Positions 5,825-29,688 of a DNA stretch of 64,000 nucleotides are shown piece by piece (position 1 is the stretch's first letter; each line of letters starts with the position of its first letter). The notes under the pieces are model-generated. The model was not told where the DNA came from. It saw nothing but the letters and a program-made list of their open reading frames with translations, and did no database searches. The position numbers and the translations under genes are program-made. Origin of the DNA: Methylomonas sp. (GTDB lineage: Bacteria; Pseudomonadota; Gammaproteobacteria; Methylococcales; Methylomonadaceae); the NCBI GenBank assembly GCA_002928965.1, contig PERU01000003.1, positions 62,001 through 126,000 of the forward strand, written 5' to 3'.

Positions 5825-6292
5825 ATGACAACATTAACAATCGGTCAACCTGTACCCCCTTTTGAACTGCCTGCCACCGGCGACAAAACTGTATCTCTTG
5901 CCGACTTCCACGGCAAAAAGTTGGTGATTTACTTTTACCCTAAAGACAACACCCCGGGCTGTACTCAGGAAGGGCAGGCGTTTCGGGATCACATACAACA
6001 GTTTGAAGCGCTAAATGCGGCTGTCGTTGGGGTTTCCAGGGATAGTGTCAAAATGCACGAAGGCTTTAAATGCAAACAAGCATTTCCGTTTGATTTATTA
6101 TCCGATGCGGATGAAACTGTTTGTCAGCTGTTTGACGTGATTAAAATGAAAAACATGTATGGCAAGCAGGTGCGAGGCATAGAACGCAGCACCTTTCTGA
6201 TCGACGAAAACGGCGTCTTAATCCACGAATGGCGTAAAGTCAGTGTTAAAAATCATATACAAGACGTGCTGCAACGTTTGCAGCAGGACTAA
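5825..6292 (+). CDS. bcp: Thioredoxin-dependent peroxiredoxin, BCP/PrxQ family
   Basis: A 155-residue cytoplasmic peroxiredoxin that reduces hydrogen peroxide and organic hydroperoxides. The peroxidatic Cys46 lies in the TPGCT motif after YFYPKDN, and the downstream Arg of the active site is in the IERSTFLID segment. The resolving cysteine that E. coli BCP has five residues later is missing (TPGCTQEGQAF here); C83-type positions in FKCKQ or VCQLF could substitute, or the enzyme works as a 1-Cys peroxiredoxin. The gene starts four bases after gcvR and is probably cotranscribed with it. I chose the ATG at 5825 over an earlier in-frame start inside gcvR. Confidence 0.94.
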   Translation: MTTLTIGQPVPPFELPATGDKTVSLADFHGKKLVIYFYPKDNTPGCTQEGQAFRDHIQQFEALNAAVVGVSRDSVKMHEGFKCKQAFPFDLLSDADETVCQLFDVIKMKNMYGKQVRGIERSTFLIDENGVLIHEWRKVSVKNHIQDVLQRLQQD

Positions 6293-6615
6293 TTCGTTAT
6301 TTATCGCAGCAGTACTGAAATTTTGCTGATTACCAAAGATTAATCAGCTAACGATTTCGCCAAAAAAAACGCCCCACTTCTCAAAGAGGTGGGAGTAAAT
6401 CATGCTCAGGTAGGACCAGACATTCTGGACGTTATTCGCAAGCAAATCCCAAGTCAAAAACGGTCATCTCGGCAGGGATAGACGAGAATCCGAAACGATG
6501 ATGGCGGGAGCCGAACCCGTCTATCTGCCTGGATTCTTTTCACAGTCTTTGCTCCGGCATCCACTTCTGACATAGAGGGTATGCCGGAGTCTTGTTATTT
6601 GTGAAGCAAGTTTGA
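6293..6615. repeat. Gene-free stretch with several extragenic hairpins (REP-like)
   Basis: No coding frame is convincing here. Three inverted repeats are visible: a stem around 6370-6393; GGCAGGGATAGACG at 6471-6484 opposite CGTCTATCTGCC at 6518-6529 (two-base bulge); and a perfect 9-bp repeat CTCCGGCAT at 6552-6560 with ATGCCGGAG at 6581-6589. Their spacing and GGCAG/GAATCC-type words resemble dispersed extragenic palindromes. A related word (AGAGGTATGCCG) recurs at about 7162-7173 on the other side of the next gene. Confidence 0.5.
6363..6393 (-). terminator. Probable rho-independent terminator downstream of the YchJ-family gene
   Basis: Read on the minus strand, a 9-bp stem (CCCACCTCT / AGAAGTGGG with one G-T pair and a 3-base loop) is followed by GCG and a run of eight T. 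It lies about 220 bases past the minus-strand stop at 6616. The same hairpin has no T run on the plus strand. Confidence 0.55.
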
Positions 6616-7071
6616 TCAGGTAAATTTTTTGCCGGGAATGCGTTGGCCTTCAACTTTGCCGGCCGCTTTGATGACCCCATCCAGATACCGCCAATGTCCT
6701 CCGATTTTAACGAAGCGACTGATTTCGTGCATAAAGCAATCCTCCCCGTCCTGACAGTAAAACGCTTTAAATTCCACCCTGCCTTTGCTGTCCTTTGCAC
6801 TGCCTTTTTTTGAACTGATAATCTGCAATCTTTGCCATTCAGCCGTCTCTTCTGAAAAATTAATAGCGTCGGGGCGTTTGCTTTCATCCCAGCTTAATAA
6901 CAGATAATCGGCATTACGCAGGGCATAGGCTGTAAAGCGTGAGCGCATCAGCAATTCAGCTGTGGCAGGGATTTGCAGGCCGTCATGGTAAAGCTCACAG
7001 CACTCGCTGTAAACTTTACCGGAACCGCATGGACAGGTTTTGGAACTTGGTGTTGAGGTCATCATACGCAT
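6616..7071 (-). CDS. YchJ-family protein with SEC-C zinc motif (UPF0225)
   Basis: A 151-residue cytoplasmic protein matching the YchJ/UPF0225 family in length. The N-terminus carries a SEC-C metal-binding motif (CPCGSGK followed by ECC), then the conserved segment LMRSRFTAYALRNADYLL and an NTF2-like fold ending with a GHWRYLDG motif. Family members bind zinc through the cysteines; a precise cellular role is not established. Three ATGs lie at the 5' end (7071, 7065, 7062). A perfect minus-strand TATAAT sits only about ten bases upstream of the first, so either the message is almost leaderless or the inner ATGs are used. The gene stands alone between repeat-like hairpins. Confidence 0.88.
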   Translation of the reverse strand: MRMMTSTPSSKTCPCGSGKVYSECCELYHDGLQIPATAELLMRSRFTAYALRNADYLLLSWDESKRPDAINFSEETAEWQRLQIISSKKGSAKDSKGRVEFKAFYCQDGEDCFMHEISRFVKIGGHWRYLDGVIKAAGKVEGQRIPGKKFT

Positions 7072-7080
7072 GGTTATCTG

Positions 7081-7107
7081 ATTATAACGATCATCTGGCT
7101 AAGTCAA
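7081..7107 (-). promoter_or_regulatory. Sigma-70-like promoter of the YchJ-family gene
   Basis: On the minus strand TATAAT (7086-7081) is preceded by TTGACT (7107-7102) with a 15-base spacer, or by TTTTGA with 17 bases. Transcription from it would begin within a few bases of the ATG at 7071. Confidence 0.45.
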
Positions 7108-7273
7108 AACACCGAGTCACACCAACTTGAACGGGTTGTTGCGGGCCTATAGCGGCCATACAGAGGTATGCCGAAATCAGGGTTTAAGGATCCAGCCTTT
7201 GGATTAACTGTAACAGCTTACTGGTCAGGAATGCTTCATGCAACGGCCTTTGATGTCATTCGGTGGGGTACCC

Positions 7274-8140
7274 TCAGCGCAATAACAGTAAAGGCTTGGG
7301 GCTATGTGTCAACATTTTTAACGTAAAACTTCCTAATAACCAGTCACGGACGCGGGTATGACCAAATGCACCCATCACGGTCACGTCAATGGCTTTTTGT
7401 TCTTGATGTTCAGATAGGGCTTGTTCGGGTTTGCCAAGCATTTTTTGTGCGATGACTTCGATACCGCCAGCCAGTTGCAGTTTGCGGGCAGCGACTTCGA
7501 GTAACTGTCCTTTGCCTTCGTCCTTGCTGACGCAGACCAGATGGCATACCAGCCCTTTATACAGTGGACTGGTGGCGACCATGTCCAGAGCTTTCTCGGC
7601 AGCAGGGCTGCCATCATAGGCCAGCATGATCCGTTCCGGTTGTTTAAATTCGGCATTCACCACCAAAATCGGCTTATGCAGCGAGCGGATGATCGATTCC
7701 AGCTTGGCGCCGATTTTGTCCGGCTGGTTGTCGTGGACTTTGCCGCGCACGCCTATCACCAGCACCCGCAAGTCGTTTTCCAGCTCAATCAGGGACTCGA
7801 CCAAACTGCCGTGGCGCTGATGGGTGATGGGGTCTAGAATGCCCGCTTGCATCACTCTTTCCTTAGTGTTTTGTAATAGCTGTTTGCCCTGTTGCAAGCG
7901 CAATTTGCTACGCTGCTATTCCAGTTGCGTCAACTCATCCATTAATTGATCACGGCTATCGATGCCGATATTACCGGTTAAATCGGTATGATCGGTTGCT
8001 TCCGGATGATGGTCGATGGTATGTAATAGTTTTAATGGGGCATCCATTTTTTGCGCGATCCAGGCAGCATAATCGCAGACGGCATTGGTTAGGGAGGAGC
8101 CATCAATGCCGGCTAATACCCAGTTTTGTGTTGTATTCAT
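7274..8140 (-). pseudogene. Tandem universal stress protein interrupted by an in-frame amber codon
   Basis: Two minus-strand open segments (8140-7916, 74 residues; 7903-7274) are in the same frame and together make a typical two-domain UspA protein of about 288 residues. They are separated by one TAG at 7918-7916, in the context LTQLE-stop-QRSKL, which would be CAG or GAG before a single-base change. The first domain starts WVLAGIDGSS; the second holds LAYDGSPAAEKALD and the nucleotide-binding pattern GAFGHTRVRDWLLGS, so the fold is otherwise intact and not decayed. The ATG overlaps the stop of the SulP gene (TGATG), implying coupled translation. It may be a recent null mutation, a sequencing error, or a product made by readthrough or by reinitiation at the TTG at 7903. 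Confidence 0.85.
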
Positions 8141-9633
8141 CAGTGACCTCCCATGACTTTTTCTATTTCTTCGGGGTTATCGTGGACCGCAAAGCGGTCG
8201 ACGATCGTGGTGGTGGCTTCATTCATGCCAAGCAATTCCACATCGGCCCCTTCGCGGCGTAACTTGATGACAACCTTATCCAGTGCACTGACCGAGGTAA
8301 TGTCCCAAAAATGTGCGCGTTGCAGATCAATAATCACGTTGTCCACGGCTTCTTTGAAATCGAAGCTATTCACAAACTTGTCCGCCGAATTGAAAAACAC
8401 TTGGCCAATCACTTTATAAGTCCGCGTGTTGCCGGTTTCATCCAGTTTCGAGTCTACGTACATGAAATGACTGATCTTGTTGGCAAAGAACAATGAAGCC
8501 AGCAAAACGCCGACAAATACACCCATTGCCAGATTGTGCGTCCACACCACCACGACTACGGTGGCTATCATGACGATATTGGTCGATATCGGATGCTGTT
8601 TTAAATTGATTATGGAACGCCAGCTAAAGGTGCCGATGGATACCATGATCATCACCGCCACTAAGGCTGCCATTGGGATCTTTGAAATCCATTCATCCAG
8701 AAATACCACCATGAGCAACAGAAAGGTGCCCGCCACCAAGGTTGATAGACGACCGCGGCCACCGGATTTGATGTTGATGATGGACTGGCCTATCATCGCG
8801 CAGCCGGCCATGCCGCCTAACAGGCCGGCACCGATGTTGGCCAAGCCTTGGCCCTTACATTCGCGGTTTTTATCGCTGCTGGTGTCGGTTAAATCATCAA
8901 CGATAGTGGCCGTCATCATCGATTCCAGCAAACCCACAACAGCCAGGGGCAGTGAATACGGCAGGATGATTGTCAGGGTTTCCAGCGTTAAGGGTACTTC
9001 GGGCCACAAAAAAACCGGCAAGGTGTCGGGCAGTTGGCCCATGTCGCCGACGGTGCGGATATCGATATGCCAGTAAACGGCAACCGCGGTCATACTGACG
9101 ATGCAAACCAAGGGCGATGGCAACGATTTGCCGATGACTGGCAAATAGGGAAATAAGTAAATAATCGCCAAGCCGCCAGCAGTCATGGCATACACGTGCC
9201 AGCTTACGTTAATCAATTCAGGCAATTGCGCCATGAAGATCAAAATAGCCAAGGCATTGACAAAGCCCGTCACTACCGAGCGCGACACGAAACGCATCAG
9301 ACTACCGAGTTTGAGGTCGCCGGCAATGATCTGGAACAACCCGGTCAACAGGGTGGCTGCCAGCAAAAACTGCAAACCGTGATCCTTGACCAGTGTCACC
9401 ATCAACAAAGCCATGGCACCGGTCGCCGCCGAGATCATGCCGGGCCTGCCGCCGACAAAAGCAGTAATCACCGCGATGCAAAACGAGGCATATAAACCCA
9501 CTTTGGGATCGACCCCGGCGATGATGGAGAAAGCAATGGCTTCTGGAATCAAGGCTAACGCGACGACGGTACCTGCCAGTACATCACCACGGATATTGCC
9601 GAACCAGTCTGGTTTTTTTGATAAAAAGAGCAT
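8140..9633 (-). CDS. SulP-family inorganic anion transporter with STAS domain
   Basis: A 497-residue inner-membrane carrier. The N-terminal two thirds contain about a dozen hydrophobic segments and the SulP signature region ([20 protein letters not shown], then GLYASF and ATGAMALL). Residues about 400-497 form a cytoplasmic STAS domain ([13 protein letters not shown]). SulP proteins carry sulfate, bicarbonate or other anions; the sequence does not settle which, but this short form paired with a universal stress protein resembles bicarbonate-type SulP loci in aquatic bacteria. I chose the ATG at 9633 because an AGGA motif lies nine bases upstream; a longer frame to 9678 adds non-family residues. 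The universal stress protein gene follows with a one-base overlap, so the latter may regulate or sense transport. Confidence 0.9.
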
Positions 9634-9783
9634 GTGTATCCTGTAAAAAGGCCATGCAAGATATGGCCCAGCAGTCATTGCAGTCGGTTTTCCGGAAAAT
9701 TCAGAGGGTATTCCGGCCCTTTCTGAATAAAAGGCGAGCGCGCAGGCAAGGGGATGACAAACGCACTCTGGTTATATGTTTCA

Positions 9784-9819
9784 AATTAATATTATAAGTA
9801 AAAGGTATTAATTTCGCAA
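9784..9819 (-). promoter_or_regulatory. Promoter of the SulP-usp operon with AT-rich shared element
   Basis: On the minus strand TTGCGA (9819-9814) and a perfect TATAAT (9796-9791) are 17 bases apart. The -10 is embedded in a 16-bp block (AATTAATATTATAAGT on the plus strand, 9784-9799) that recurs exactly in front of marR at 13055-13070. The match suggests common regulation of both operons. Confidence 0.55.
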
Positions 9820-9853
9820 ACCCAAGCCAACGGATATGGTATTGCGGCGTTTA

Positions 9854-12448
9854 CTATTTCAGCCTCGCGCTGATGGCCGGCAACACCAATAAGCAGCAGA
9901 TTAAGGTCAGGATTATGCCGATGGATAATAACAAGCCCATACTGGCTGTCCCTTGATGACTATTGAAGGCAAGACTCGTAAAACTACACAAGGTGGTCAA
10001 GGCACTGAAAAACACACCGCGCGCCGAACTCGATTGCAGCAACTCGTCGGCTTGATCCGGTTGGTGCCGCAAACGCTGGACAATGTGAATGCCGCTGTCG
10101 ACCCCCATACCCAGTAACAACGGCAGCACAATGATGTTGGCAAAATTGAATGGATTGTTCAGCCAAACATTGACGGCGGCCGTCAGTAGTGCTGCCAACA
10201 ACAAGGGTGTCATTACCAATACTGTCGCTTTCAGGCTGCGGGTCATCAGCAGCAGTAATAGTACAATCAAGATCAGCGCGCTGGAAAAGGCTTGAATAAA
10301 GGCATCGACCACCGCTTTCCCGGAGGTGACGTCGCCAATTGGCAAACCAAATACCGAGGCATGCGTATCCGTCACTTCATTGACGAATTGTTGCAGTGGT
10401 TCGCGTTGATTCAAGTTTTGTGCAGGTGTAACCAATACCCGGTATTGCCCTGCATCACTGACCCAGTGTCGGCGCAGACTGGCGGGTATGTCGTCTATAT
10501 TCATCGGAGTGGCCGCCAAACTTTCGCGAAGCACTGACAAGGTATGCGGTAACAAGCTCAGCAATCGATCTTCCAGATTTTTATAGATGGCATCGGGCTG
10601 CTGTGCGCCATCCGCGCTTTTCATAAATGTAACCACATGACTTAGCATTGCCTCAATCCGTTCATTCGGCATGCTGGTTAAAGGTTGAGCGGAGGCTTTT
10701 TGCAACGCGTCTTGCAGAGCAAATAATGCGTTACGCACGTCTGAAGCTTGATGAACATCGGCAAATTGTTGCAGTTGCATCGGCATCATCAGATTTAAAT
10801 TATCGATGATTTCCAATTTCTGCTCTTGATCTGTCGGTACCAAATCACTGAGAGTGATGGCTTGATGCACACTGGGTAGCGCCGCAAAGCGTTCAGACAG
10901 ACGCTTGGCTTCGTCCAAACTATTAACCAGTGCCGAAATCGCAAAAGGCGAATCGGATTGGCTTTCCAGCAAGCGTTTAAAGGCTATCACCGAGGGTGAA
11001 TGTGGGTCACGCAGGTTGATCGGTGAGGAATCAAAACTGACGCCCTCAAGACTGAACAGGGCTATAAAGGCTAAGCATAGGGAGGTGATACGGATGGCAC
11101 GGGCGTGCCGAAACGGGAAGTTGTAGAAACGTGCAGATAAGCCTGTCGAGCGCGGATGTGCTGGCGCTTGTGGCGACAGCATTTTTAACAAGGCTGGCAG
11201 CAAACTTAGCGAAACGGCTAAGCCGATAAACATGCCGCCCCCGGAAATAATGCCCAGTTCCGCCACACCTTTGAAATCGGTTGGAATGAAAGCAAAAAAG
11301 CCGATAGCGGTGGTTAATGCACACAAAAACAACGACGGCCCAACCGCTTTCATACTGTCGATGATGGCTTGATCGGTATCCTGGCTTTGACCCCAGCATT
11401 CCTGGTAATGCAGGCATAGGTGAGTGGCAAAGTCCACGCCCAAACCAATATACAACACCGCAAACGCCACCGAAATCAGATTGAGATGGCCGATGGCCAC
11501 TGTGGCAAAACCGGCAGTCAAAGCTAATCCAACAATCAATGCAATTAGCGTCGCCAACAACAAGCGAACAGAGCGCAATCCCAGCCATAAAGCGGCACAC
11601 ACCAATACAAACGAAATGATGCTGGAGAGCAGCATATCGTGATTCACGGTTTCCATTTCCTCGTGCTCCAATGCCACTTCACCGGTTATAGCCACTGTTA
11701 CGCCGGGATGGTGCGCCGATATATCTAATGTCAATGCCCGCAGATAAGCCATGGCATGATCCGCCGGCATTAATTGATCAAAATCCAGATAGGGCTTGGC
11801 GATTATCAAACGCCGCAGGCGATTGCGGGTTTGCTCGGTGTCCGTGAGTAGTTGTTGCCAGGATAAGAATTTAGCTTGTCCTTGGTTGGCTGCGATCACG
11901 GTTTGATCGATGGCGGACAACAGTACATCCAGTGATGCAACTGAATCAGCGTCCCGGTTTTCCAGTGCTTTAACGACGATATCGACCAAGCCGGCAAAAT
12001 GAAAATGTTGGGATAAATAGCCGATGAAGGGTTGGGCGTCGATCAGTTTGGTGGACAAGGTTTCAAGCTCTGTTGTGTCGAGGTACAAAAAACCTTGTCG
12101 ACGGAAAAACGGATCGTCGTCGGGAATATAAACCGATTCGAATAGTGCGGTTTCCGTCTGTAGGCGCCGCTTAATGGTGTCAGCTGCCAGTGCTGTTTGT
12201 TCCGGCGTTTCCGACTCCACCACCAGGATTAGAGTCGAGGCGTCTTGAGGGAAAGCCTGGTCCAAGGCCAATCGCACCTTTTGAAACGGCAAATCCTGAT
12301 CCAATAATTGAGCCGTATTGTTTTGTATGCCCAGATGGCGACTGGTATACGTCAAGCTCAAGGCACAGAGTCCCAAGAACAGCAGCAATACTTGCCAAGG
12401 GAACCGCAGGATTAAGCGGCTTAAACGGTTTAGTGCATGATCAATCAT
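9854..12448 (-). CDS. hpnN: Hopanoid biosynthesis-associated RND transporter HpnN
   Basis: A protein of 864 residues with two MMPL/RND halves. Each half has a transmembrane helix, a large periplasmic loop and a cluster of five or six helices (about 250-430 and 700-860). The first loop matches HpnN: TSRHLGIQNNTAQLLDQDLP and later DPFFRRQGFLYL and AQPFIGYL. HpnN moves hopanoids between inner and outer membranes in family members such as those of Rhodopseudomonas and Burkholderia. I chose the ATG at 12448; an in-frame GTG at 12499 adds residues lacking family similarity. A MarR-family gene lies 149 bases upstream on the same strand. No hopanoid synthesis genes (shc, hpnH and others) are in the window, so the synthesis locus is elsewhere. 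Confidence 0.88.
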   Translation of the reverse strand: MIDHALNRLSRLILRFPWQVLLLFLGLCALSLTYTSRHLGIQNNTAQLLDQDLPFQKVRLALDQAFPQDASTLILVVESETPEQTALAADTIKRRLQTETALFESVYIPDDDPFFRRQGFLYLDTTELETLSTKLIDAQPFIGYLSQHFHFAGLVDIVVKALENRDADSVASLDVLLSAIDQTVIAANQGQAKFLSWQQLLTDTEQTRNRLRRLIIAKPYLDFDQLMPADHAMAYLRALTLDISAHHPGVTVAITGEVALEHEEMETVNHDMLLSSIISFVLVCAALWLGLRSVRLLLATLIALIVGLALTAGFATVAIGHLNLISVAFAVLYIGLGVDFATHLCLHYQECWGQSQDTDQAIIDSMKAVGPSLFLCALTTAIGFFAFIPTDFKGVAELGIISGGGMFIGLAVSLSLLPALLKMLSPQAPAHPRSTGLSARFYNFPFRHARAIRITSLCLAFIALFSLEGVSFDSSPINLRDPHSPSVIAFKRLLESQSDSPFAISALVNSLDEAKRLSERFAALPSVHQAITLSDLVPTDQEQKLEIIDNLNLMMPMQLQQFADVHQASDVRNALFALQDALQKASAQPLTSMPNERIEAMLSHVVTFMKSADGAQQPDAIYKNLEDRLLSLLPHTLSVLRESLAATPMNIDDIPASLRRHWVSDAGQYRVLVTPAQNLNQREPLQQFVNEVTDTHASVFGLPIGDVTSGKAVVDAFIQAFSSALILIVLLLLLMTRSLKATVLVMTPLLLAALLTAAVNVWLNNPFNFANIIVLPLLLGMGVDSGIHIVQRLRHQPDQADELLQSSSARGVFFSALTTLCSFTSLAFNSHQGTASMGLLLSIGIILTLICCLLVLPAISARLK

Positions 12449-20292: not shown

Positions 20293-20537
20293 GTGATTCG
20301 GCAAGTTTGAATAAACTGCGCTGGCGTTGCCGGCGCGGTGCCTTAGAGTTGGATGTAATGCTATTGAGGTATCTTGAGGGTTGTTATATGTCTGCTGATG
20401 AGTTTGATCAACAGTCCTTTATAAAGTTATTAGAAAGGGAAGATACCGAATTGCTCCGGTATTTAATTGGGGAAAATGCCGAATACCCGTCTGAGCTGAC
20501 CAAAATCATCTTAAAAATCAGAGCATTGTCAGCGTAA
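20289..20537 (+). CDS. sdhE: FAD assembly factor SdhE
   Basis: An 82-residue helical protein with the RGxxE motif (RRGALELD) that defines SdhE/CptB and contacts SdhA during FAD attachment. The length fits the family. The GTG start overlaps the TGA of sdhB, so translation is coupled to the complex it serves. It is the last gene of the cluster and converges on the ATPase operon. Confidence 0.94.
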
Positions 20538-20596
20538 GACATTATTTGCTATGTTTTTAGCTTCAAGACTCCCAGTCCACCGCTAAGTTCACTTGA

Positions 20597-22429
20597 TTAA
20601 CTTGTTTGCTTAAGGGTTAAAATTTTATCCAGTAGCTGTTTGTACTCGGTAGACTGCCAAATCGAATAATTCAGGTTTCTAAATAAGCCCGTCAGCCGTG
20701 TATAGAAATTTCGTGCTTGATTTTGGTCGCTAAAATCATTTTCGGCCATCAAAATATCTTTGATCAGCATAAACATCTGTTTTTGCCTTTCCATCGGCAC
20801 AGACACATCGACCTCATCAAAAGCGTCTTGTTGCAGATACACCATATCCACAAAGATGGCTTGCTGATAAATAACAAAATCTTGCAGTGTTACGCCTTCT
20901 TCACCAGCCACCTGAATCATTTCGTGAACGCTATTACCACGTTCCAATAAACTGAGAACCTGTTGAACATGCCGGGTCCAATCGACATCCAACTCTTTGG
21001 CATACCAAGGATTTAATTGTTCCAAATAGCGTGACCAAGACAACAGAGGATCAACAGCCGGATAAAAGCGTTTGTAAGCCCGATCAGCACTTAAACCCAA
21101 AAAGGTTTTGACTGTACTCAAGGTGGACTGGGTAACGGGTTCTTCGAAGTTGCCGCCCGCAGGCGACACAGTGCCTATCATGGTCAAACTACCGGTGGCA
21201 CCGTCGGCATTGGCAATGACGCCAGCGCGCTCGTAGATGTTTTTGATTGAGGAATCCAGGTAAGCCGGGAAGGCTTCTTCTCCGGGAATTTCTTCCAGTC
21301 GACCGGACGTCTCACGCATCGCCTGTGCCCAGCGCGAGGTTGAATCAGCCAGTAACAATACATGCAAGCCCATTTGCCGATAGTATTCGCCCAAGGTTAT
21401 CCCAGTATAAATGGAGGCTTCCCGAGCGGCCACCGGCATGGATGAGGTATTGCAGATGATGATGGTTCTGTCCATCAAGGAACCGCCGGTCTTGGGGTCG
21501 ATCATTTGCGGGAATTCGCTGATGGTTTCCACCACTTCACCGGCACGTTCTCCACACGCCACCACGATGACAATGTCCACTTCTGAATTGCGGGCAATCA
21601 GGCTTTGTAATACGGTTTTGCCTGCGCCAAACGGGCCGGGAATACAACCGGTGCCGCCACGGGCAATCGGGAAAAAGGTATCAATCAGTCTGAGATGGGT
21701 CTGCAACGGTTCCTGTGGGTAGTGCCGCTGCACCAGATTATGGCGCAATAATGACTGCGTCATGGGTTTGCGAACAGGCCAGCGTTGTTTCAGGGTCAGT
21801 ACCTGTTCTTTGCCGTTGCTCAAGCGGATTTTGGCAATCGGTTCGGTTACGGTGACATTGCCTTCCTGAATCCAGGTGACTTCAACCAAGCCTTTAATGT
21901 CAAAAGGAATCATGATTTTGTGATCGAAACGATGCTCTTTAACCGAGCCGATGCTTTGTCCGGCACTCAGCCGTGAACCCGTCTGCACGCAAGGCGCAAA
22001 TGCCCACTTGGTATTGGGATTGAGTGCGGGCAGATCAACACCTCGCGGCAGAAAGTAGCCAAACTCAACCGCCAGCAAATCCAGTGGATTTTGCAAGCCA
22101 TCGTAGACTTGCCCTAATAAACCCGGGCCTAAATCCACGGATAACAGGTCGCCGGTTTGTATGACCGGATCGCCTATGCCAACGCCAACGGTGCTTTCAT
22201 ACACCTGGGCGTCGGCGCGATTGCCGTGAATTCGCAGAATTTCCGCTTTCAAGCGTTCTTGATGCTTGGCTTCGCTGCGAGTAGGTAAAATGTAAACCAA
22301 CTCGTTTTTGGTCAAGGGTTTGTCATCAATGGATTCAATAGATACTATATCGTCTTGAACGGCCACGACTCGCGCGCTGATACAGGAATTTTCGTCTGAC
22401 ATGGAATTGAAAGGAGATACTGTATTCAT
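20597..22429 (-). CDS. atpA: V/A-type ATPase subunit A (catalytic)
   Basis: A 610-residue catalytic subunit. The Walker A motif GPFGAGKT is at 265-272, a VACGERAGE motif follows at about 290, and the bulge (non-homologous) insert typical of V/A-type A subunits precedes the P-loop. The catalytic arginine-finger partner regions DSTSRWAQAMRE and EEAFPAYL are present. It is the last gene of the operon on the minus strand, overlapping the preceding gene by four bases. In spirochaetes and chlamydiae this gene instead precedes the B-subunit gene. It is clearly a V/A-type A subunit and not F-type beta. Confidence 0.95.
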   Translation of the reverse strand: MNTVSPFNSMSDENSCISARVVAVQDDIVSIESIDDKPLTKNELVYILPTRSEAKHQERLKAEILRIHGNRADAQVYESTVGVGIGDPVIQTGDLLSVDLGPGLLGQVYDGLQNPLDLLAVEFGYFLPRGVDLPALNPNTKWAFAPCVQTGSRLSAGQSIGSVKEHRFDHKIMIPFDIKGLVEVTWIQEGNVTVTEPIAKIRLSNGKEQVLTLKQRWPVRKPMTQSLLRHNLVQRHYPQEPLQTHLRLIDTFFPIARGGTGCIPGPFGAGKTVLQSLIARNSEVDIVIVVACGERAGEVVETISEFPQMIDPKTGGSLMDRTIIICNTSSMPVAAREASIYTGITLGEYYRQMGLHVLLLADSTSRWAQAMRETSGRLEEIPGEEAFPAYLDSSIKNIYERAGVIANADGATGSLTMIGTVSPAGGNFEEPVTQSTLSTVKTFLGLSADRAYKRFYPAVDPLLSWSRYLEQLNPWYAKELDVDWTRHVQQVLSLLERGNSVHEMIQVAGEEGVTLQDFVIYQQAIFVDMVYLQQDAFDEVDVSVPMERQKQMFMLIKDILMAENDFSDQNQARNFYTRLTGLFRNLNYSIWQSTEYKQLLDKILTLKQTS

Positions 22430-23106
22430 AAAGACTCAAAATCAATGCCGCTTAAACCGGCGCTAACAAGTTCGTCGAAATGCGTAACCGCTTGTTCAGC
22501 TTGGTAAACGCTCCAACGACTGATAATGTCCCAACGCATGACATAAATGACCACGGCAGGAAAATCAAAGTAATGACCATTAGCCAGACGCAGATGGTGT
22601 TGCCAGGTGACGCTTAAAATTAATTTTTCCAGTGCAAAGCTTTCACCTGCTTCCATTAGTTGTTGGGCCTGAACAATCCAGGGGATGCGGCTGGCCAAAC
22701 CGAAATGCTTATCTCGCCAATGACGGCGTATCTGCAACACTCTATCCCCGAAACCCTGAAATTGATTGCCATCAAAATCAGGTGAGGTCATGCGTAATCT
22801 AAATGCTGCCAGCAGGGTGCGCAATTCCAGGCGCCAAGTTAGAACGTCGCGCAGAAAAGGATGGCAAAACTGCTGAGCCTCGGCTTTAAAATGAGAGAAC
22901 ACAGCCGACTCTTCGAGTCCGGGAATTTTTTGCCAAAGCAGCAAGCGCTCTATGCGCTGTAAATCCTTTGCATCCTGCTCTTCCAGTAAGGCCAATCGGT
23001 TATCCAGCTGTATGCGCGATACAGGCGGCCTGTCCACGCTAAACAGGTTTTCGGGATGCTGCGGCAAACTGCTAATCAGTAATGTGTATTTGAACGCATC
23101 GCTCAC
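22426..23106 (-). CDS. V/A-type ATPase-associated DUF2764 protein
   Basis: A 226-residue soluble protein of the DUF2764 family, found between the E and A subunit genes in bacterial V/A-ATPase operons of the chlamydia/spirochaete type. It begins YTLLISSLPQHPENLFSVDRPPVSR and is rich in charged helices. It is thought to replace the C/d socket subunit, which is otherwise absent here; that role is inferred from position and from the lack of any other C/d candidate. It overlaps both neighbours by four bases. Confidence 0.8.
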   Translation of the reverse strand: MSDAFKYTLLISSLPQHPENLFSVDRPPVSRIQLDNRLALLEEQDAKDLQRIERLLLWQKIPGLEESAVFSHFKAEAQQFCHPFLRDVLTWRLELRTLLAAFRLRMTSPDFDGNQFQGFGDRVLQIRRHWRDKHFGLASRIPWIVQAQQLMEAGESFALEKLILSVTWQHHLRLANGHYFDFPAVVIYVMRWDIISRWSVYQAEQAVTHFDELVSAGLSGIDFESL

Positions 23107-23792
23107 TTGATGATGCCTTGCAATAGTGCTCTGAAGCGAGGCTGCAGATGACTCAACAGCAACTCGGACAAGGCTTCGTCTGTAAATTCAATTTGCATGG
23201 CATTGTCAACCAGGCGTATTACCAGACCTGATTTCAATTGATCGCTGACAGTCACTGTGACACCCTCCCGCAATAGATCAGCAGCGATGGCCGCTGTGAG
23301 GCCGGATAATGCACCTTGCGTTAATTCTTGCGGGTTCGCGCGGAGTTCATCGATACCAATCACATCTTCAGGCAAATGAAACTCCAATCGGGATGATTGA
23401 TCAAGTCCGGCTTTATCACGCATACGCCCCGCCAAGCTTAGTATCAATGCTTCGATAAATTGCTGTTTATCCATGGATTGACCCACAACTCGCATGACCT
23501 CCTGGCTAAAGCTACCCAGCAAGGTATCTCTAAGTTTTAATAAGGCATCACGGCCTGCCAGTCGCAATCCATCCATCCCGGCTGCATGTAGGGCATCAGC
23601 TTCCTCGCGGGCCTTGTTGACAAGGTGCTGGGCTTCCTGTTCCGCTTCGCTGATCAGCCAAGCGGCGCGTTTTTGTGCATCGACAACAATATCTTTCGCT
23701 TTACTTTGACCGGCCTGAATAGCCTCTTCGCGTAAACGTTCGATGAGTTGTTCGACACCAAACGATATCACCTCAGTGTTTTTTGCAGTCAT
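23103..23792 (-). CDS. atpE: V/A-type ATPase subunit E (peripheral stalk)
   Basis: A 229-residue protein. The first hundred residues form an alanine- and glutamate-rich coiled coil (IQAGQSKAKDIVVDAQKRAA and following), which is the outer stalk. The C-terminal half is a globular domain that caps subunit A/B. Length and layout are standard for E. It follows the K-subunit gene after 12 bases. Confidence 0.86.
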   Translation of the reverse strand: MTAKNTEVISFGVEQLIERLREEAIQAGQSKAKDIVVDAQKRAAWLISEAEQEAQHLVNKAREEADALHAAGMDGLRLAGRDALLKLRDTLLGSFSQEVMRVVGQSMDKQQFIEALILSLAGRMRDKAGLDQSSRLEFHLPEDVIGIDELRANPQELTQGALSGLTAAIAADLLREGVTVTVSDQLKSGLVIRLVDNAMQIEFTDEALSELLLSHLQPRFRALLQGIIK

Positions 23793-23804
23793 GGCTGAAT
23801 TCTC

Positions 23805-24269
23805 TCAGGTACTCGGAATGCTGCCGGCAATCACCAGCGCAAAGATGAAGGCAAATACAGCAAAGCCTTCCACAATGGCAGCTGGCGCCACGGAGAGTCC
23901 GAAAATTTCGGGTTTAGCCTTGGATGCATGAATGGCCGAAGCACAACATTGACCCTGATAGATAGCGCTAAACATCAGGGCTAAGCCACATAACAAGCCG
24001 ACCGCAAAAATACCTGAACCATTATCGGGTTGAATTGGCCTGTTTAAAGTAAACATCACCACAACCCCATAAATAACCTGAGATGACGGCATGGCGGAAA
24101 CGCCTATATAACGTCCATGACCGGATTCAGTATCCAGCATGGCGCCGATAGCAGCCTGTCCCGCAACAGCACAGCCCACAATACTGCCAATGGCTCCCAG
24201 CGCCATGGGGGCGTAGATACCCACCCAGCCCAGAAAGTCAAAATAATGGGTAATGGTCAGTTCGCTCAT
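23805..24269 (-). CDS. atpK: V/A-type ATPase subunit K (rotor proteolipid), Na+-type ligand set
   Basis: A 154-residue membrane protein of four helices, two fused proteolipid hairpins, which forms the rotor ring. The ion-binding residues of the Na+-dependent Enterococcus NtpK have equivalents here: S63-Q64 in AMPSSQVIYG (for T64-Q65), Q105 in IYQGQCC (for Q110) and the essential carboxylate E134 in AIVEGFAVF (for E139). This suggests Na+ rather than H+ coupling; it is an inference from alignment by eye. The gene overlaps the I-subunit gene by four bases. Confidence 0.9.
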   Translation of the reverse strand: MSELTITHYFDFLGWVGIYAPMALGAIGSIVGCAVAGQAAIGAMLDTESGHGRYIGVSAMPSSQVIYGVVVMFTLNRPIQPDNGSGIFAVGLLCGLALMFSAIYQGQCCASAIHASKAKPEIFGLSVAPAAIVEGFAVFAFIFALVIAGSIPST

Positions 24270-26071
24270 GAATGCACTCCTCGTTTATAAAATGCTTTAA
24301 ATGGATAACCTTCATCGGACACACTCCAATTGTAAAATTCGATGAAATTGAGTCGTAAACCGTGCACCACACCACTCATTAGACACAAGACCAGATTGAG
24401 TGCGTGGCCGATTAACAAGATCAGAATGCAAAACAACAGACCGGGGCCGGGCAGCGCATGTAATACTTGCAGGGCCAGTTGATTGAATGTCAAGGCCATG
24501 GACGCGCTGGCCAGTCCTAAGGCAAACAGTCGCATATAGCTCAACACATCGCCAAACAATTGCGTTATGCCGATCAATTGTTTCAGACCATCAAATAAGC
24601 GGAAAAAGGCGGTGGCTGGACTTTGTACTGGACGATCGCTACCGAAAAACAGCAGCAAAACGATTCCAAATCCCAGTAAGCTGAGTCCAATGCTTTCCAA
24701 AATGGTCTGAAAGGTCGTTACAATCGATAACCAATAACAAAAACCACCAATCACCATGGCAATCCAGGCAATCGGAACTAACCGCGTAGTCCAGGACACT
24801 TGATAATAGGCCTTGATCAGGTTGGCAAGCATGATGTGGAACACACCTACGGCGACCGATATGCGCATCATGCTGTCAAAATCGTTCAGGTCCAAAAGTT
24901 TTAACCGGTACAACCCGCTTTCGGCCGAAGGGGTGTAGCCAAAATAACTGCCCAGCAGCACCCCCCAGATAATAGACAATGCCAGTGTATCCAGCGCCAA
25001 AATGCGTAAGCGCTGACCGCGTAAACTGTCTCCCAAACTGCGCCATTTTAAGGCTAGCAATATCGCCAATACTGCAGCATAGCCGGCATCGGATAAGATC
25101 ATCGCGAAAAAACTGGCGAAGGAAAAAAACACGGCAGCGGAGGGGTCCCAGCCACGATAGCCGGGTGTTTGGTAAAAGTTGACTAAATCCTGCCCTCCCG
25201 CCACTTGAAGCGGGTTATTCAGCAAGGTGGGCGGTTGGTCGTTCGGGCCTGGATTGTCTACCAACATCGCCAACCCCAGGGATTCCGCAAACTGCTGATA
25301 AGCTGTAATTTGATCGACGGGTACCCAGCCTTGTACTGCAAAAATATGATCCTTGTCATAAGTAAGCAACTGAGCTTGCTGCAATTCTTCCCGGTTTTGT
25401 ACGTCACAAAGATGCAACGACAACAAGCCAATCCAGCGGGTCAATGATTCACGCTCAGCCTGCTGGTCTTCCAAATGCAATAGCGTATCAGCATATTCCC
25501 TGCGTAATTGTGACAATGGAATTGATCCGACATGGGTGCGCGGGACCGGCATGAGTTGTTCTTCCGGTTCGGTAGCTGAAATAACTACGACATAAGCATT
25601 TAGGTTGTTCTCATGCACGACTTGCCAAATCAAGCCACTTTGTTTGACGTGATGCAGCATGCCCAAAGGCACGATGTAAAACCATAAATGCAGACCGCCT
25701 AAATCGGCTTGGTTCGGCAGACGGAAATCACCCCAAGGTTCGATTTCCTTGATGCGTTTATCCAAAGCGTCCGCAAGATCGGTTAGTTCGCGGATACGTC
25801 GCTTGATTGTCAGAGCCTGATTGATGATGCTATCAAGATCAAACGGCTGTCCCCGGGTGATTTGCTGGCGTTTGCGCGGGCAATCCGCAAGGAACTTCAA
25901 AGCTTCGGCAGCGGCTTCTGAATATCCGGGGTTATGCGAAGACAGGTTTTGATCCGCATTTTGCAGTGCAATCAGGTGCATGCTGCCAAGAGCCTGCAAT
26001 TCTGCCAATACGCCGGACTTATCCGACAAAAAACCACACAGCGTCAGTTTGTTGAGTTTGACGATCGCCAT
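24266..26071 (-). CDS. atpI: V/A-type ATPase subunit I (membrane stator)
   Basis: A 601-residue protein with a soluble N-terminal half and a C-terminal membrane half with about seven or eight helices. It corresponds to the a/I subunit that holds the ion half-channels and contacts the K ring. I see the conserved stretches AIVKLNKLTLCGFLSDK at the start, YRGWDPSAAVFFSFASFFAM before the membrane domain and QLFGDVLSYMRLFALGLAS with the conserved Arg needed for ion transfer. I chose the ATG at 26071, one base after the D-subunit stop; a longer frame to 26140 would lie inside that gene. Confidence 0.92.
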   Translation of the reverse strand: MAIVKLNKLTLCGFLSDKSGVLAELQALGSMHLIALQNADQNLSSHNPGYSEAAAEALKFLADCPRKRQQITRGQPFDLDSIINQALTIKRRIRELTDLADALDKRIKEIEPWGDFRLPNQADLGGLHLWFYIVPLGMLHHVKQSGLIWQVVHENNLNAYVVVISATEPEEQLMPVPRTHVGSIPLSQLRREYADTLLHLEDQQAERESLTRWIGLLSLHLCDVQNREELQQAQLLTYDKDHIFAVQGWVPVDQITAYQQFAESLGLAMLVDNPGPNDQPPTLLNNPLQVAGGQDLVNFYQTPGYRGWDPSAAVFFSFASFFAMILSDAGYAAVLAILLALKWRSLGDSLRGQRLRILALDTLALSIIWGVLLGSYFGYTPSAESGLYRLKLLDLNDFDSMMRISVAVGVFHIMLANLIKAYYQVSWTTRLVPIAWIAMVIGGFCYWLSIVTTFQTILESIGLSLLGFGIVLLLFFGSDRPVQSPATAFFRLFDGLKQLIGITQLFGDVLSYMRLFALGLASASMALTFNQLALQVLHALPGPGLLFCILILLIGHALNLVLCLMSGVVHGLRLNFIEFYNWSVSDEGYPFKAFYKRGVHS

Positions 26072-26072
26072 C

Positions 26073-26675
26073 TTAAATAGCCTGCTGCGAGCGGAGTTGT
26101 TTGGTGGTTTTGGCGCGAACCACGTCTGCACGTTCTGCATCTGATAAAGACAGCCGAATCTTGCGTATGTTATGCAATGATTTTGGTATCAACACCTTGT
26201 CAAATAAATTGACTTTCTGGGTGACTTTTTTGACGGCCATATTCAAAATGGTTAGCCTCTGTTGTTGAACTCGCAGTTGTATCTGCAGTAACAGCATTCG
26301 CTCCAACTCGACCACCAGTCGATCAACCCAATGCGGTTTGACGAAAAAAGAATACTGTTCGCGGGATATTTTCAGTGTGCTCAATTTAGGCAAATTAACA
26401 CCCACTACATTTTCTCTTTTGACTTCTATTTGCTCCACTTTTACCAGATTCTGCACGGCAATGTGGCGATTGGCCAGCATGGGCAGGCTTGCAGCGACCC
26501 AGTCCTGGCAGGCTTGCACGTCTTGTTGCAACTGCACTAATGCAGATTGGGCCTTGGCTCGCTCGGTCATCAATTGTTGGCGTTTTAAATCCAACGAGGG
26601 TAGGTATTGCTTATAACGCTTGAGTTTGGCAGATTCTTTATGCAGAGTCGCCTTATTCAGGGATAACTTTGCCAT
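26073..26675 (-). CDS. atpD: V/A-type ATPase subunit D (central shaft)
   Basis: A 200-residue, almost wholly helical protein. The two long terminal coiled-coil arms (LSLNKATLHKESAKLKRYKQ and a C-terminal helix with RRIRLSLSDAERADVVRAK-type pattern) are those of the rotor shaft subunit D. It overlaps the B-subunit gene by 23 bases and ends one base before subunit I. No separate F subunit gene, which caps the shaft in many V/A-ATPases, is found in the operon. Confidence 0.88.
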   Translation of the reverse strand: MAKLSLNKATLHKESAKLKRYKQYLPSLDLKRQQLMTERAKAQSALVQLQQDVQACQDWVAASLPMLANRHIAVQNLVKVEQIEVKRENVVGVNLPKLSTLKISREQYSFFVKPHWVDRLVVELERMLLLQIQLRVQQQRLTILNMAVKKVTQKVNLFDKVLIPKSLHNIRKIRLSLSDAERADVVRAKTTKQLRSQQAI

Positions 26676-28017
26676 GACCCACCGTCTTGAAATATTTGTC
26701 TATCAGTGCCTGTTTCATCAGTAATTCACTTTCGTCAAAACATTCGGCCAGCGTTTGCCAGCTTAAATCAAGTGCCTGTTCCAGGGGCATTGAGACATTG
26801 ATATCCATGAATCTTTGCCTGAATAACGAGCCGAATTTCAGCAGTTTTTGGTCATAGTCAGATAAATCAAACGCCATCGCCTGTTTTTGCTCGGCGTCGT
26901 TGGCTGCGGCATAAAAGCGGATCATGGTATTCATGATCTGGGAATGATCCTCACGGGTAACCTTGCCTATCACGTGTTGCTTTAGCCGCGATAGCGATCC
27001 GAATGGGTCGAGCACACCGTTATGCAGATAAAACTGACCTTCGGTAATATAACCCGTGTTATCGGGAACCGGGTGGGTAACATCGTTTCCCGGCATGGTG
27101 GTCACGGTCAGAATCGTGACAGATCCTGCACCTTTGTAATCGCAGGCTTTTTCATAACGGCGGGCTAATTGCGAATATAAATCACCCATATAGCCGCGAT
27201 TGGATGGCACGTGTTCCATCGAGATACTGATTTCCTTCATGGCGTCGGCATAGGCTGTCATATCGGTCATTAATACCAACACCCGTTTGCCTTCTTCTAC
27301 GGCGAAACGTTCCGCTACCGCCAAGGCCATATCAGGCACCAACAGACGCTCTACGATTGGATCGGAAGCCAGGTTGCAGTACATCACGGTGCGGGCAAAT
27401 ACACCGGCCAGTTCGAACTGCGACCGAAAATAATAGAAATCGTCGAAAATAAGCCCCAAACCAGCGAATACCACAATATCTGCATCGGCCTGGATGCCGA
27501 CACGGGCTAAAAAGGCATTAAAAGGTTCGCCGGAAATCGAGAAAATCGGAATTTTCTGACTCTCCACCAGACAATTGAACAAGTCGATCATGGGCACATC
27601 AGTGCGTATCATTTTTGAAGCCAGTACCCGTTTCATCGGATTGACTGATGCGCCGGAAATAGTCACTTTAGGATCGGGTTGTAAATCCGACCCACCGTCC
27701 ATGGGTTGACCGATACCGTTGAATATTCGCCCCAGGATATTTTCTGAATATGTTACTTGCAGGGCGTGGCCCAGAAACCGAACAGAGGCTGCAGTGGAGA
27801 TACCCCGTGTACCCGAAAAGACCTGTAAGGAGACTTTGCTGCCATCAATTTTGATTACTTGCGCCAAAGACTGGCTGCCATTGATATCTTCGATCTGGGC
27901 TAAGTCGCCAAAACGGGTAGTAATATCAGAGCTAGTTATGCTGCTGCCGATATTGACCGTAATGATGTTACCAACAATGGATACAATATTCTGATGCCTA
28001 ACCATCTGTTCAATCAT
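26653..28017 (-). CDS. atpB: V/A-type ATPase subunit B (non-catalytic)
   Basis: A 454-residue regulatory nucleotide-binding subunit. In place of a canonical P-loop it has FSISGEPFNAFLARV, and the later TDMTAYADAMKEIS and NRGYMGDLYSQLARRYE blocks are typical of V/A-type B subunits, the latter supplying the arginine finger to subunit A. It is the first gene of the operon. The 82 bases separating it from purK on the same strand are enough for a promoter, but I cannot define one. Confidence 0.95.
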   Translation of the reverse strand: MIEQMVRHQNIVSIVGNIITVNIGSSITSSDITTRFGDLAQIEDINGSQSLAQVIKIDGSKVSLQVFSGTRGISTAASVRFLGHALQVTYSENILGRIFNGIGQPMDGGSDLQPDPKVTISGASVNPMKRVLASKMIRTDVPMIDLFNCLVESQKIPIFSISGEPFNAFLARVGIQADADIVVFAGLGLIFDDFYYFRSQFELAGVFARTVMYCNLASDPIVERLLVPDMALAVAERFAVEEGKRVLVLMTDMTAYADAMKEISISMEHVPSNRGYMGDLYSQLARRYEKACDYKGAGSVTILTVTTMPGNDVTHPVPDNTGYITEGQFYLHNGVLDPFGSLSRLKQHVIGKVTREDHSQIMNTMIRFYAAANDAEQKQAMAFDLSDYDQKLLKFGSLFRQRFMDINVSMPLEQALDLSWQTLAECFDESELLMKQALIDKYFKTVGHGKVIPE

Positions 28018-28099
28018 TTTGAACTCCGTTCAAAGCCGGGCGAATCTGCCAAGCGTGTTTCAAAGCCGCATTACCTGCTATTTTGGGAGCTATCCAAGT

Positions 28100-29194
28100 T
28101 TAGGAGTTATCCACTCGATTTGCCAGGGAAGCCAGTTTTTCGAGACATTCATTAAACTGTTTCAAATTATCGCTTCTGACGCTCGCATGCGCAACCTTAC
28201 GTCCTTTACGAGGTAGTTTGTCATATAGATGCAGATGCGCATGATCCAAACTCAGAAGCTCTTGCGACTCGGGTAAACCACCAATGAAATTGACCATGGC
28301 AGCGTAACCAAGAGTTTGAGTTGATCCGAGGGGTAAATCCAGGATGGCCCGCAAGTGGTTTTCAAACTGGCTGGTTTCCGAACCTTCTATGCTCCAATGG
28401 CCAGAGTTGTGAACGCGGGGGGCAAATTCGTTAGCCAGTAACTGGCCGTTTAAGTCGAATAATTCCAATGCAATCACGCCGACATAATTCAGCTTTTCCA
28501 ATAAACGCCTGACATAATCTTCTGCCATGTCCTGTTCTGCATCGTTGCTACAAGCTGCCGCTACCCGCAAAATACCACCTTTATGTTGGTTTTCCGATAG
28601 CGGATAAAATACGATGTCACCCGACGGGCGCCGGGCGGCAATAATCGAAACTTCTCGTTGAAAGGGCACAAACCCTTCGACGATAGACGGATTTCCCTGC
28701 ATGGCTTGCCAGGCATCCGCCAGTTCATTTTCAGCTCGCAAGACGATCTGGCCTTTGCCGTCGTAGCCCATACGCCGACTTTTCAAAATAGCTGGATAAC
28801 CAATCAAAGCCATGGCCTGCTGTAGGTCATTTAGGCTATCTATAGCCGCATAGGGTGCGGTGCCGATACCCAACTCGTTGAAAAAGTTTTTTTCCAGCAG
28901 CCTGTCTTGAGCTACCGCCAATGCATTGGCAGGTGGATAAACTGTCGTGTGGCTGGACAAAAATTCTGCGACATGGGCCGGTACGTTTTCAAACTCATAG
29001 GTTACCACATCGGCTTTTTCGGCCAGCTCCGCCAGTAAGTCCGGGTCATCGTAGGGGCCTTGCAAATGTTCACTTAAGCCTGCAGCACCTGCATTGGCAT
29101 CGGGATCAAGCACGATAAATTGCAATCCTAAAGGATAACCCGCTAAAGCTATCATCCTGGCGAGTTGGCCGCCACCCAGGATGCCAACTTTCAT
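28100..29194 (-). CDS. purK: 5-(carboxyamino)imidazole ribonucleotide synthase
   Basis: A 364-residue ATP-grasp enzyme that makes N5-CAIR from AIR, ATP and bicarbonate in purine synthesis. N-terminal [20 protein letters not shown] is the family signature; [14 protein letters not shown] is the ATP-grasp loop and [17 protein letters not shown] the metal and substrate site. Its start overlaps the end of purE by four bases, so the two consecutive enzymes are translated together. Confidence 0.96.
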
Positions 29195-29688
29195 GCTTGA
29201 ACCTGCCTGGGATCTGGATTGGCAGTGACGTTGTCAGTTTGCTGTTGACGATACGCATCCAGAGCAGGCCGGTATTTTGGATGTTTGTTGCTGATTATGG
29301 CTGCAGCCAACAAAGCAGCATTGATGGCACCGGCTTTGCCGATGGCCAGTGTGCCCACCGGAATACCTGCTGGCATTTGTACAATTGACAATAAAGAGTC
29401 CATGCCGTTGAGAGCTTTAGACTGTACCGGTACGCCCAAAACCGGCAACGCGGTTTTTGCTGCGGTCATTCCGGGTAAATGCGCTGCGCCACCGGCACCC
29501 GCGATGATGACTTCCAGGCCCTTGGCTTCAGCAGTTTCGGCATATTGAAACAATTTATCAGGCGTGCGATGCGCCGATACAACTTCCACATCATGGGGGA
29601 TATCCAAATGCTCTAGGGTTTGCGCAGCATATTGCATGGTATCCCAGTCGGACGTGGAACCCATGATGATGCCTATCAATGCGGTCAT
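29191..29688 (-). CDS. purE: N5-carboxyaminoimidazole ribonucleotide mutase
   Basis: A 165-residue enzyme that converts N5-CAIR to CAIR. The signature GSTSDWDTM, the active-site [12 protein letters not shown] with its catalytic His, and [11 protein letters not shown] are intact. A GGAG ribosome-binding site lies nine bases before the ATG. The gene is divergent from ccmA, with about 140 AT-rich bases between them that must hold both promoters. Confidence 0.97.

Follow-up and report, generated by a model that had tools for sequence, protein, structure and literature searches.

This study concerns a V/A-type ATPase operon of the gammaproteobacterium Methylomonas sp., which lies in a stretch of 64,000 nt (GenBank assembly GCA_002928965.1, contig PERU01000003.1, positions 62,001 to 126,000 of the forward strand), referred to as the window. 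Seven open reading frames (ORFs) on the minus strand occupy positions 20597-28017 and encode, in the order of transcription, the subunits B, D, I, K and E, a DUF2764 protein and subunit A. The same order had been proposed in a sequence-only reading of this DNA, and both the gene coordinates and the profile matches agree with it. The genes and adjoining features are listed below in transcription order, with purE-purK placed last.

26653..28017, minus strand: V/A-ATPase subunit B, first gene of the operon; NF002555/PRK02118 at 701.9 bits (cut-off 431), PF00006 and PF22919
26073..26675, minus strand: subunit D, rotor axle; PF01813 at 121.7 bits (cut-off 25.7), 23-nt overlap with B
24266..26071, minus strand: subunit I, stator and ion channel; PF01496 at 49.9 bits (cut-off 30.7)
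23805..24269, minus strand: subunit K, two-hairpin proteolipid; NF007200 at 190.7 bits (cut-off 108), aligned to Enterococcus hirae NtpK (2bl2)
23793..23804, minus strand: K/E spacer of 12 nt, taken from the gene coordinates; putative seam
23103..23792, minus strand: subunit E, peripheral stalk; PRK01558 at 7.4e-23 and 81.2 bits, below the curated cut-off of 241
22426..23106, minus strand: DUF2764 protein, proposed equivalent of subunit C/d (rotor cap); PF10962 at 33.0 bits (cut-off 24.1)
20597..22429, minus strand: catalytic subunit A, last gene of the operon; NF003220 at 754.5 bits (cut-off 470)
28100..29688, minus strand: purE-purK, 82 nt upstream of B; found in other loci by phmmer with the window PurE and PurK

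The two head subunits assigned the operon to the DUF2764-type ATPases, as its PRK02118-type B and PRK04192-type A both scored above the curated cut-offs, and the DUF2764 gene adjoins that of A. For subunit I, whose ORF opens at 26140, Met24 at 26071 was taken as the likelier start, and the PRK05771 models matched it at 2.8e-72, yet under their cut-offs; the matches of subunit E were found solely under curated cut-offs. The genes are tightly packed, with overlaps of 23 nt between B and D and of 4 nt each at I/K, E/DUF2764 and DUF2764/A, a gap of 1 nt between D and I given the Met24 start, and the widest gap, 12 nt, between K and E. Scans for promoters and terminators returned no excess over shuffled sequences (7 vs 10.9 and 11 vs 10.1, respectively). 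The absence of an F subunit gene, also claimed in the sequence-only reading, was borne out, since the operon contains none and the sole PF01990 match in the genome fell far under the cut-off (E-value of 0.35, 13.2 vs 23.5 bits).

To place this gene order, 151 loci were annotated with profile hidden Markov models built from the window proteins and their relatives, and the B score set the ATPase type, assigning 139 loci to the type of the window and 12 to other V-type ATPases. Complete operons were found at 108 of the 139 loci, and comprised 64 with the order B-D-I-K-E-DUF2764-A (B-first), 43 with E-DUF2764-A-B-D-I-K (E-first) and one with D-I-K-E-DUF2764-A-B (D-first). The other 31 loci were incomplete, mostly cut at contig ends or without a detected DUF2764 gene (undetected at 26 of the 139), and carried their genes in either main order except for L050, which has a lone B, and L210, which has B-D-I-K only. 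The 19.5 kb fetched for the B-like gene of L050 (9000-10457, in the relative G054) yielded no further subunit. Among the remaining loci, L083 and L099 belong to one genome, B is broken in two pieces in L132, and in L115 two ORFs that overlap in different frames represent A. The E-first order, typical of DUF2764-type operons, was confirmed as the order for comparison by the 43 complete loci together with an annotated Parabacteroides record. The window operon departs from it as a rotated variant and, as the sequence-only reading had stated, is an exact circular permutation of the chlamydial and spirochaetal E-DUF2764-A-B-D-I-K with the break between A and B.

As this sample is skewed to relatives of the window, with the named scan comprising the best 80 of 589, even draws of genomes give the fairer frequencies. 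The even draw from the Gammaproteobacteria contained this ATPase type in 10 of 370 genomes, of which eight were B-first, one was E-first (L079) and one was a partial locus with A-B-D (L080, cut off). That the B-first order might already be usual, which the sequence-only reading had set against its own proposal, is half borne out: eight of the ten gammaproteobacterial cases are B-first, L079 and L080 being the other two. The corresponding draws yielded 7 of 397 genomes in the phylum of the window (six B-first and one D-first), 14 of 195 in the planctomycete phylum of G798 (five B-first, seven complete E-first and the two partial loci L209 and L210), 11 of 148 in the phylum of a Desulfobacterales metagenome-assembled genome (MAG) (two B-first and nine E-first), and 5 of 289 in the class of Roseibium aggregatum, all B-first; here G1026 had the same coordinates as G439 and was taken as the same genome. 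In the taxonomic order of the window, 18 of 61 genomes carried this ATPase, and all 18 complete operons were B-first, in addition to the contig-cut L033 and the lone B of L050. The suggestion that the order might be confined to a few gammaproteobacteria was not supported: it accounts for 64 of the 108 complete operons and occurs in Alpha- and Gammaproteobacteria, Desulfobacterales and Planctomycetes. These results demonstrated that the B-first operon is the usual arrangement of one pump lineage in distant bacteria, and no oddity of a single genome.

Phylogenetic analysis then united the rotated operons. An IQ-TREE phylogeny of concatenated A and B, built under a mixture model with 57 rows, recovered the D-first row and all 30 B-first rows as one clade with support of 100/100, and in a FastTree of A and B with 133 rows all 62 B-first rows and the one D-first row were likewise united at 100. 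Furthermore, each of seven single-gene FastTrees (99 to 133 rows) required exactly one change between B/D-first and E-first, indicating that the whole operon was rotated and inherited together, with no sign of a gene replaced from the other group. When rooted on the other V-type ATPases, both the 57-row and the 133-row trees placed the B-first clade inside the E-first rows, and the outgroup loci in which A was found had A followed by B and D in all 10 cases. This nesting and the A-B-D of the outgroups make the E-first order the likelier older state. Most likely, the rotation occurred once, in one clade, and then spread; an ancestral E-DUF2764-A-B-D-I-K would have been rotated a single time into B-D-I-K-E-DUF2764-A, and the rotated operon would mostly have been kept intact while passing between lineages, probably by horizontal transfer.

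The single D-first operon (L185:8470-15874), a third rotation in which B begins 6 bases after A, comes from one genome of the window's phylum and nests in the B-first clade beside an Azospirillaceae MAG (97/94). The possibility that D-first is a surviving ancestral step was considered; in an approximately unbiased (AU) test, a B-first clade excluding L185 was rejected only at p 0.0325, so that nesting within the B-first clade is favoured but not certain. In the same taxonomic order, L251 (847-3809 on a contig of 3,810 bases) has D and I on one strand and a divergent B on the other, and this B is 78% identical to that of L185; B appears to relocate independently of the other genes in this lineage.

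The B-first clade contains Methylococcales, Oceanospirillaceae, Legionella massiliensis, roseobacters, Stappiaceae, Desulfobacterales and Planctomycetes, with Roseibium, Ruegeria and Rhodopirellula among its named carriers. The closest named relative among the best 80 of 589 was Methylotuvimicrobium buryatense, with a B 87% identical to that of the window; this methanotroph has the same operon (L099). Complete operons are carried by two plasmids, of Tateyamaria omphalii and Qingshengfaniella alkalisoli. A plasmid of Halomonas sp. KO116 (L249) holds an apparently decaying B-D-I-K-E with K in pieces; the 11.7 kb fetched showed neither DUF2764 nor A. G009 and G027, both of the window's genus, have two B-first copies each, which come from different sub-clades. 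One of these sub-clades, the second of the Methylococcales (L040 and L047), groups with Rhodopirellula, and the window operon belongs to another sub-clade; the former grouping agrees with the proposal, in the available passages of PMC6119699, that a methanotroph acquired a Planctomycete-like operon laterally. Collectively, the B-first lineage was probably spread by horizontal transfer, and of the origins suggested in the sequence-only reading, acquisition of an already rearranged cassette fits best. The position behind purE-purK is shared with seven other loci of the genus (L032, L034, L035, L036, L038, L039 and L042). PurK was present in 53 of 61 relatives and the DUF2764-type ATPase in 18 of the same 61 genomes, which implies that gain or loss is common within the group.

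The identity of the DUF2764 protein was approached through its predicted structure, which showed the fold of subunit C/d: support for C/d filled the top five rows of the model comparison, followed by a gap to 5.6. A separate model of an E-first DUF2764 protein again had d and C as its top two rows, but weakly. By sequence, no PF01992 match was found, PF10962 being the only family listed for this protein at E-values of at most 0.001; hhalign comparison with C subunits gave E-values of 0.01 and 0.015 with probabilities of 4% and 3% over overlapping C-terminal stretches, too weak to use, and the DUF2764 profile against PDB chain sequences gave nothing useful (best E-value of 0.13, a transcription factor). 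From the predicted fold, the DUF2764 protein is a probable subunit C/d-like rotor cap. Subunit C/d is thereby offered as the identity of a functionally uncharacterised protein, encoded in operons described in the accessible passages of a 2010 paper (PMC2936114) as being without homologues of subunits C, F and G. In the open-access literature searched, PMC7203096 included, we found neither a description of the B-first order nor DUF2764 named as subunit C.

In rotary ATPases of this kind, ATP hydrolysis in the A3B3 head rotates D, and the rotation is passed through a C/d-like cap to the K ring, which turns against I, with E serving as the stalk. In the window enzyme, A and B would accordingly form the catalytic head and D the axle, the DUF2764 cap would join this axle to the K ring, I would provide the ion channel and E the outer stalk. 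Aligned to NtpK, the window K carries S, Q, Q and E at the ligand columns T64, Q65, Q110 and E139, and a tyrosine at Y68; of the 59 K rows with the B-first label, among them L185, 53 have the complete Na+-ligand set, counted over the four ligand columns. Such a complete set is treated as Na+-specific in the passages available of PMC2359735. The enzyme probably hydrolyses ATP to export Na+, the ion to which these aligned residues point, and would act as an accessory enzyme beside the F-type synthase. A proton pump for pH homeostasis, as the accessible part of PMC6119699 proposes for the methanotroph KS41, would be consistent with the six K rows that lack a residue matching Q65 of NtpK (L107, L111, L112, L114, L184 and L046, five of them from roseobacter-type loci), for which the ion may be H+ rather than Na+; for the window itself, whose K retains all the ligands, we regard this role as unlikely.

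The surroundings of the operons provide a lead on the energy source of the pump. A gene for one of 11 query energy enzymes was found near 17 of 79 loci labelled B/D-first and 0 of 64 labelled E-first, a count to be read with the limits that the queries were drawn from B-first loci, that the 17 include one short yfcC-like fragment, that many of the loci are close kin and that the label wrongly included L050 and L210. By all-against-all clustering, polyphosphate kinase 2 (PPK2) occurred at eight B-first loci and the D-first locus and at no E-first locus, with Pfam checks made in five of the B-first loci and L185. The loci with PPK2 genes are L040, L043, L044, L045, L047 and L131, downstream of A, and L105, L106, L126 and L185, the last also having an Mrr-type restriction gene in its surroundings. 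Genes for arginine deiminase, carbamate kinase and acetate kinase lie near some B-first operons; on two roseobacter-type plasmids (L247:1047-10011 and L248:2424-8546), genes for carbamate kinase (overlapping the start of B in L247), for acetate kinase and phosphate acetyltransferase, or for arginine deiminase were observed. Such non-respiratory ATP-making neighbours suggest, as a lead only, a pump supplied with ATP under limiting respiration. Around the window operon, the genes examined are in our reading sdh, pur and ccm-like genes, and not of this kind.

Overall, the explanation we consider likely, with good though not full confidence, is that of a complete seven-subunit DUF2764-type ATPase that was rotated once, mostly kept intact, probably spread horizontally and works as an accessory Na+ pump. 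The tree program warned of long branches meeting near the root. L210 slightly lowers our confidence: at 6027-10353, on a contig of 17,003 bases, it reads B-D-I-K, its B shares 81% identity with the B of an E-first relative, and no A, E or DUF2764 was found in the 3.1 kb upstream to the contig end, only short ORFs preceding B.

How the rotation came about allows several explanations. The whole operon may have been duplicated in tandem, followed by complementary loss of the outer copies to leave the B-first order, as the sequence-only reading had raised. Exactness speaks for this route, since rotations of a given seven-gene order make up only 7 of 5040 possible orders and 6 of 56 single swaps of adjacent blocks; the widest spacer of the window operon sits at the K/E seam, where the old end of the operon would have been joined to its old start, and L185 presents a second, different rotation of the same cycle. 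An old promoter region would however be expected at K/E, where the window keeps just 12 nt, and no tandem copy or remnant was seen in the three loci inspected (L185, L120 and L134). Two candidate remnants were rejected by inspection: in L120, an additional 'D' preceding B proved to be a spurious 63-residue ORF of 12.5 bits opposite a larger ORF, and in L134, the A and B genes that precede E belong to a neighbouring F-type operon. This apparent F-type operon (L134:1335-6143, in a deltaproteobacterial MAG) immediately precedes the E-first V/A operon. Nor are the additional copies in G009 and G027 tandem relics, since they are distant from the first copies and belong to another sub-clade. The duplication route is possible, at somewhat less than an even chance.

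The same level of credence, again short of even, is given to an ordinary move of a block or a single gene, in which E-DUF2764-A was detached and placed behind B-D-I-K, and B alone was later moved or inverted. In L251, B is inverted relative to D and I, and a one-gene rotation equals the moving of one gene; L210, judged by a B outside the B-first clade, has B-D-I-K without an adjoining E-DUF2764-A. These two loci weaken the case for a whole-operon duplication behind every rotation, but their contigs are short enough (3,810 and 17,003 bases) that either may be an assembly fault, and the small share of arbitrary swaps that gives a rotation counts against a block move. Excision or transfer of the operon as a closed circle that was then opened elsewhere on re-insertion, in the manner of a mobile cassette, appears improbable. 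The wide taxonomic spread and the two complete plasmid-borne operons would suit it, as would the N-ATPase, another laterally transferred accessory ATPase with the order beta-epsilon-X-X-a-c-b-alpha-gamma, which would be a rotation of the usual F-type order; yet a scan of 20300-28400 revealed no direct repeats flanking the operon, no search having been made for integrase or transposase genes nearby, and its place behind purEK in eight loci of the genus indicates an old, inherited position. Whatever the route, a single rotation inherited through the B-first clade remains our preferred reading.

Compared with known systems, the operon is closest to the DUF2764-type operons of Chlamydiae, spirochaetes, Bacteroidetes and Kuenenia, with which it shares the same seven genes, the PRK02118 subtype of B and a two-hairpin K; that of Bacteroides fragilis is noted for Na+ residues and an uncharacterised DUF2764 gene in the available passages of PMC10197588. 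It differs from the E-first operons in its rotated order and is set apart from them in all seven gene trees. The archaeal ahaHIKECFABD and Enterococcus NtpFIKECGABDHJ operons, as given in the passages accessible of PMC2838876 and PMC3608713, were compared by published gene names, with sequence used only for NtpK; they have another opening point and extra genes (H and F, or F, G, H and J), and share the cyclic order I-K-E-C-A-B-D, provided that DUF2764 is read as C and the F-type subunit is disregarded. On this basis, the archaeal, chlamydial, window and L185 orders become four openings of one cycle. One cycle for all V-type orders was rejected, since L097 reads C-I-K-F-A-B-D (E not identified) and breaks the rule. 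We regard as doubtful, though worth stating, the wider proposal that new opening points arise again and again in rotary ATPase operons with the cyclic order kept, of which the N-ATPase order would be an F-type counterpart. Tandem or circular intermediates during horizontal transfer would then be the common route, one that rotates operons and leaves gene neighbourhoods unbroken.

The N-ATPase, as portrayed in parts of PMC11738941 and PMC4154653, is similarly accessory, laterally transferred, often of Na+ type and rotated in order with a head subunit first, but it consists of F-type subunits and starts with the catalytic beta, whereas the window operon starts with the non-catalytic B. The window operon was also examined as an N-ATPase itself and rejected, its A and B failing as F-type alpha and beta and having V/A-type best models. 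Another contig of the window genome (L189:4885-10908, G000:C32) bears two F-type alpha/beta-like genes 2.9 kb apart, possibly an N-ATPase. The V-type ATP synthase of the methanotroph KS41 is described as most like those of Planctomycetes and laterally acquired; it differs in being read as a proton pump, and the available passages name neither gene order nor DUF2764 (PMC6119699). Of our results, the rotation across the whole clade and the probable identity of DUF2764 are the stronger ones. The B-first order has no demonstrated functional consequence; exact rotations of this kind form a natural series on whether operon gene order matters for assembling a complex of fixed stoichiometry. What appeared as an oddity of one genome thus becomes the marker of one old, probably mobile ATPase lineage across several phyla, and the window operon represents a variant arrangement, old and most likely of single origin, within a known kind of ATPase.

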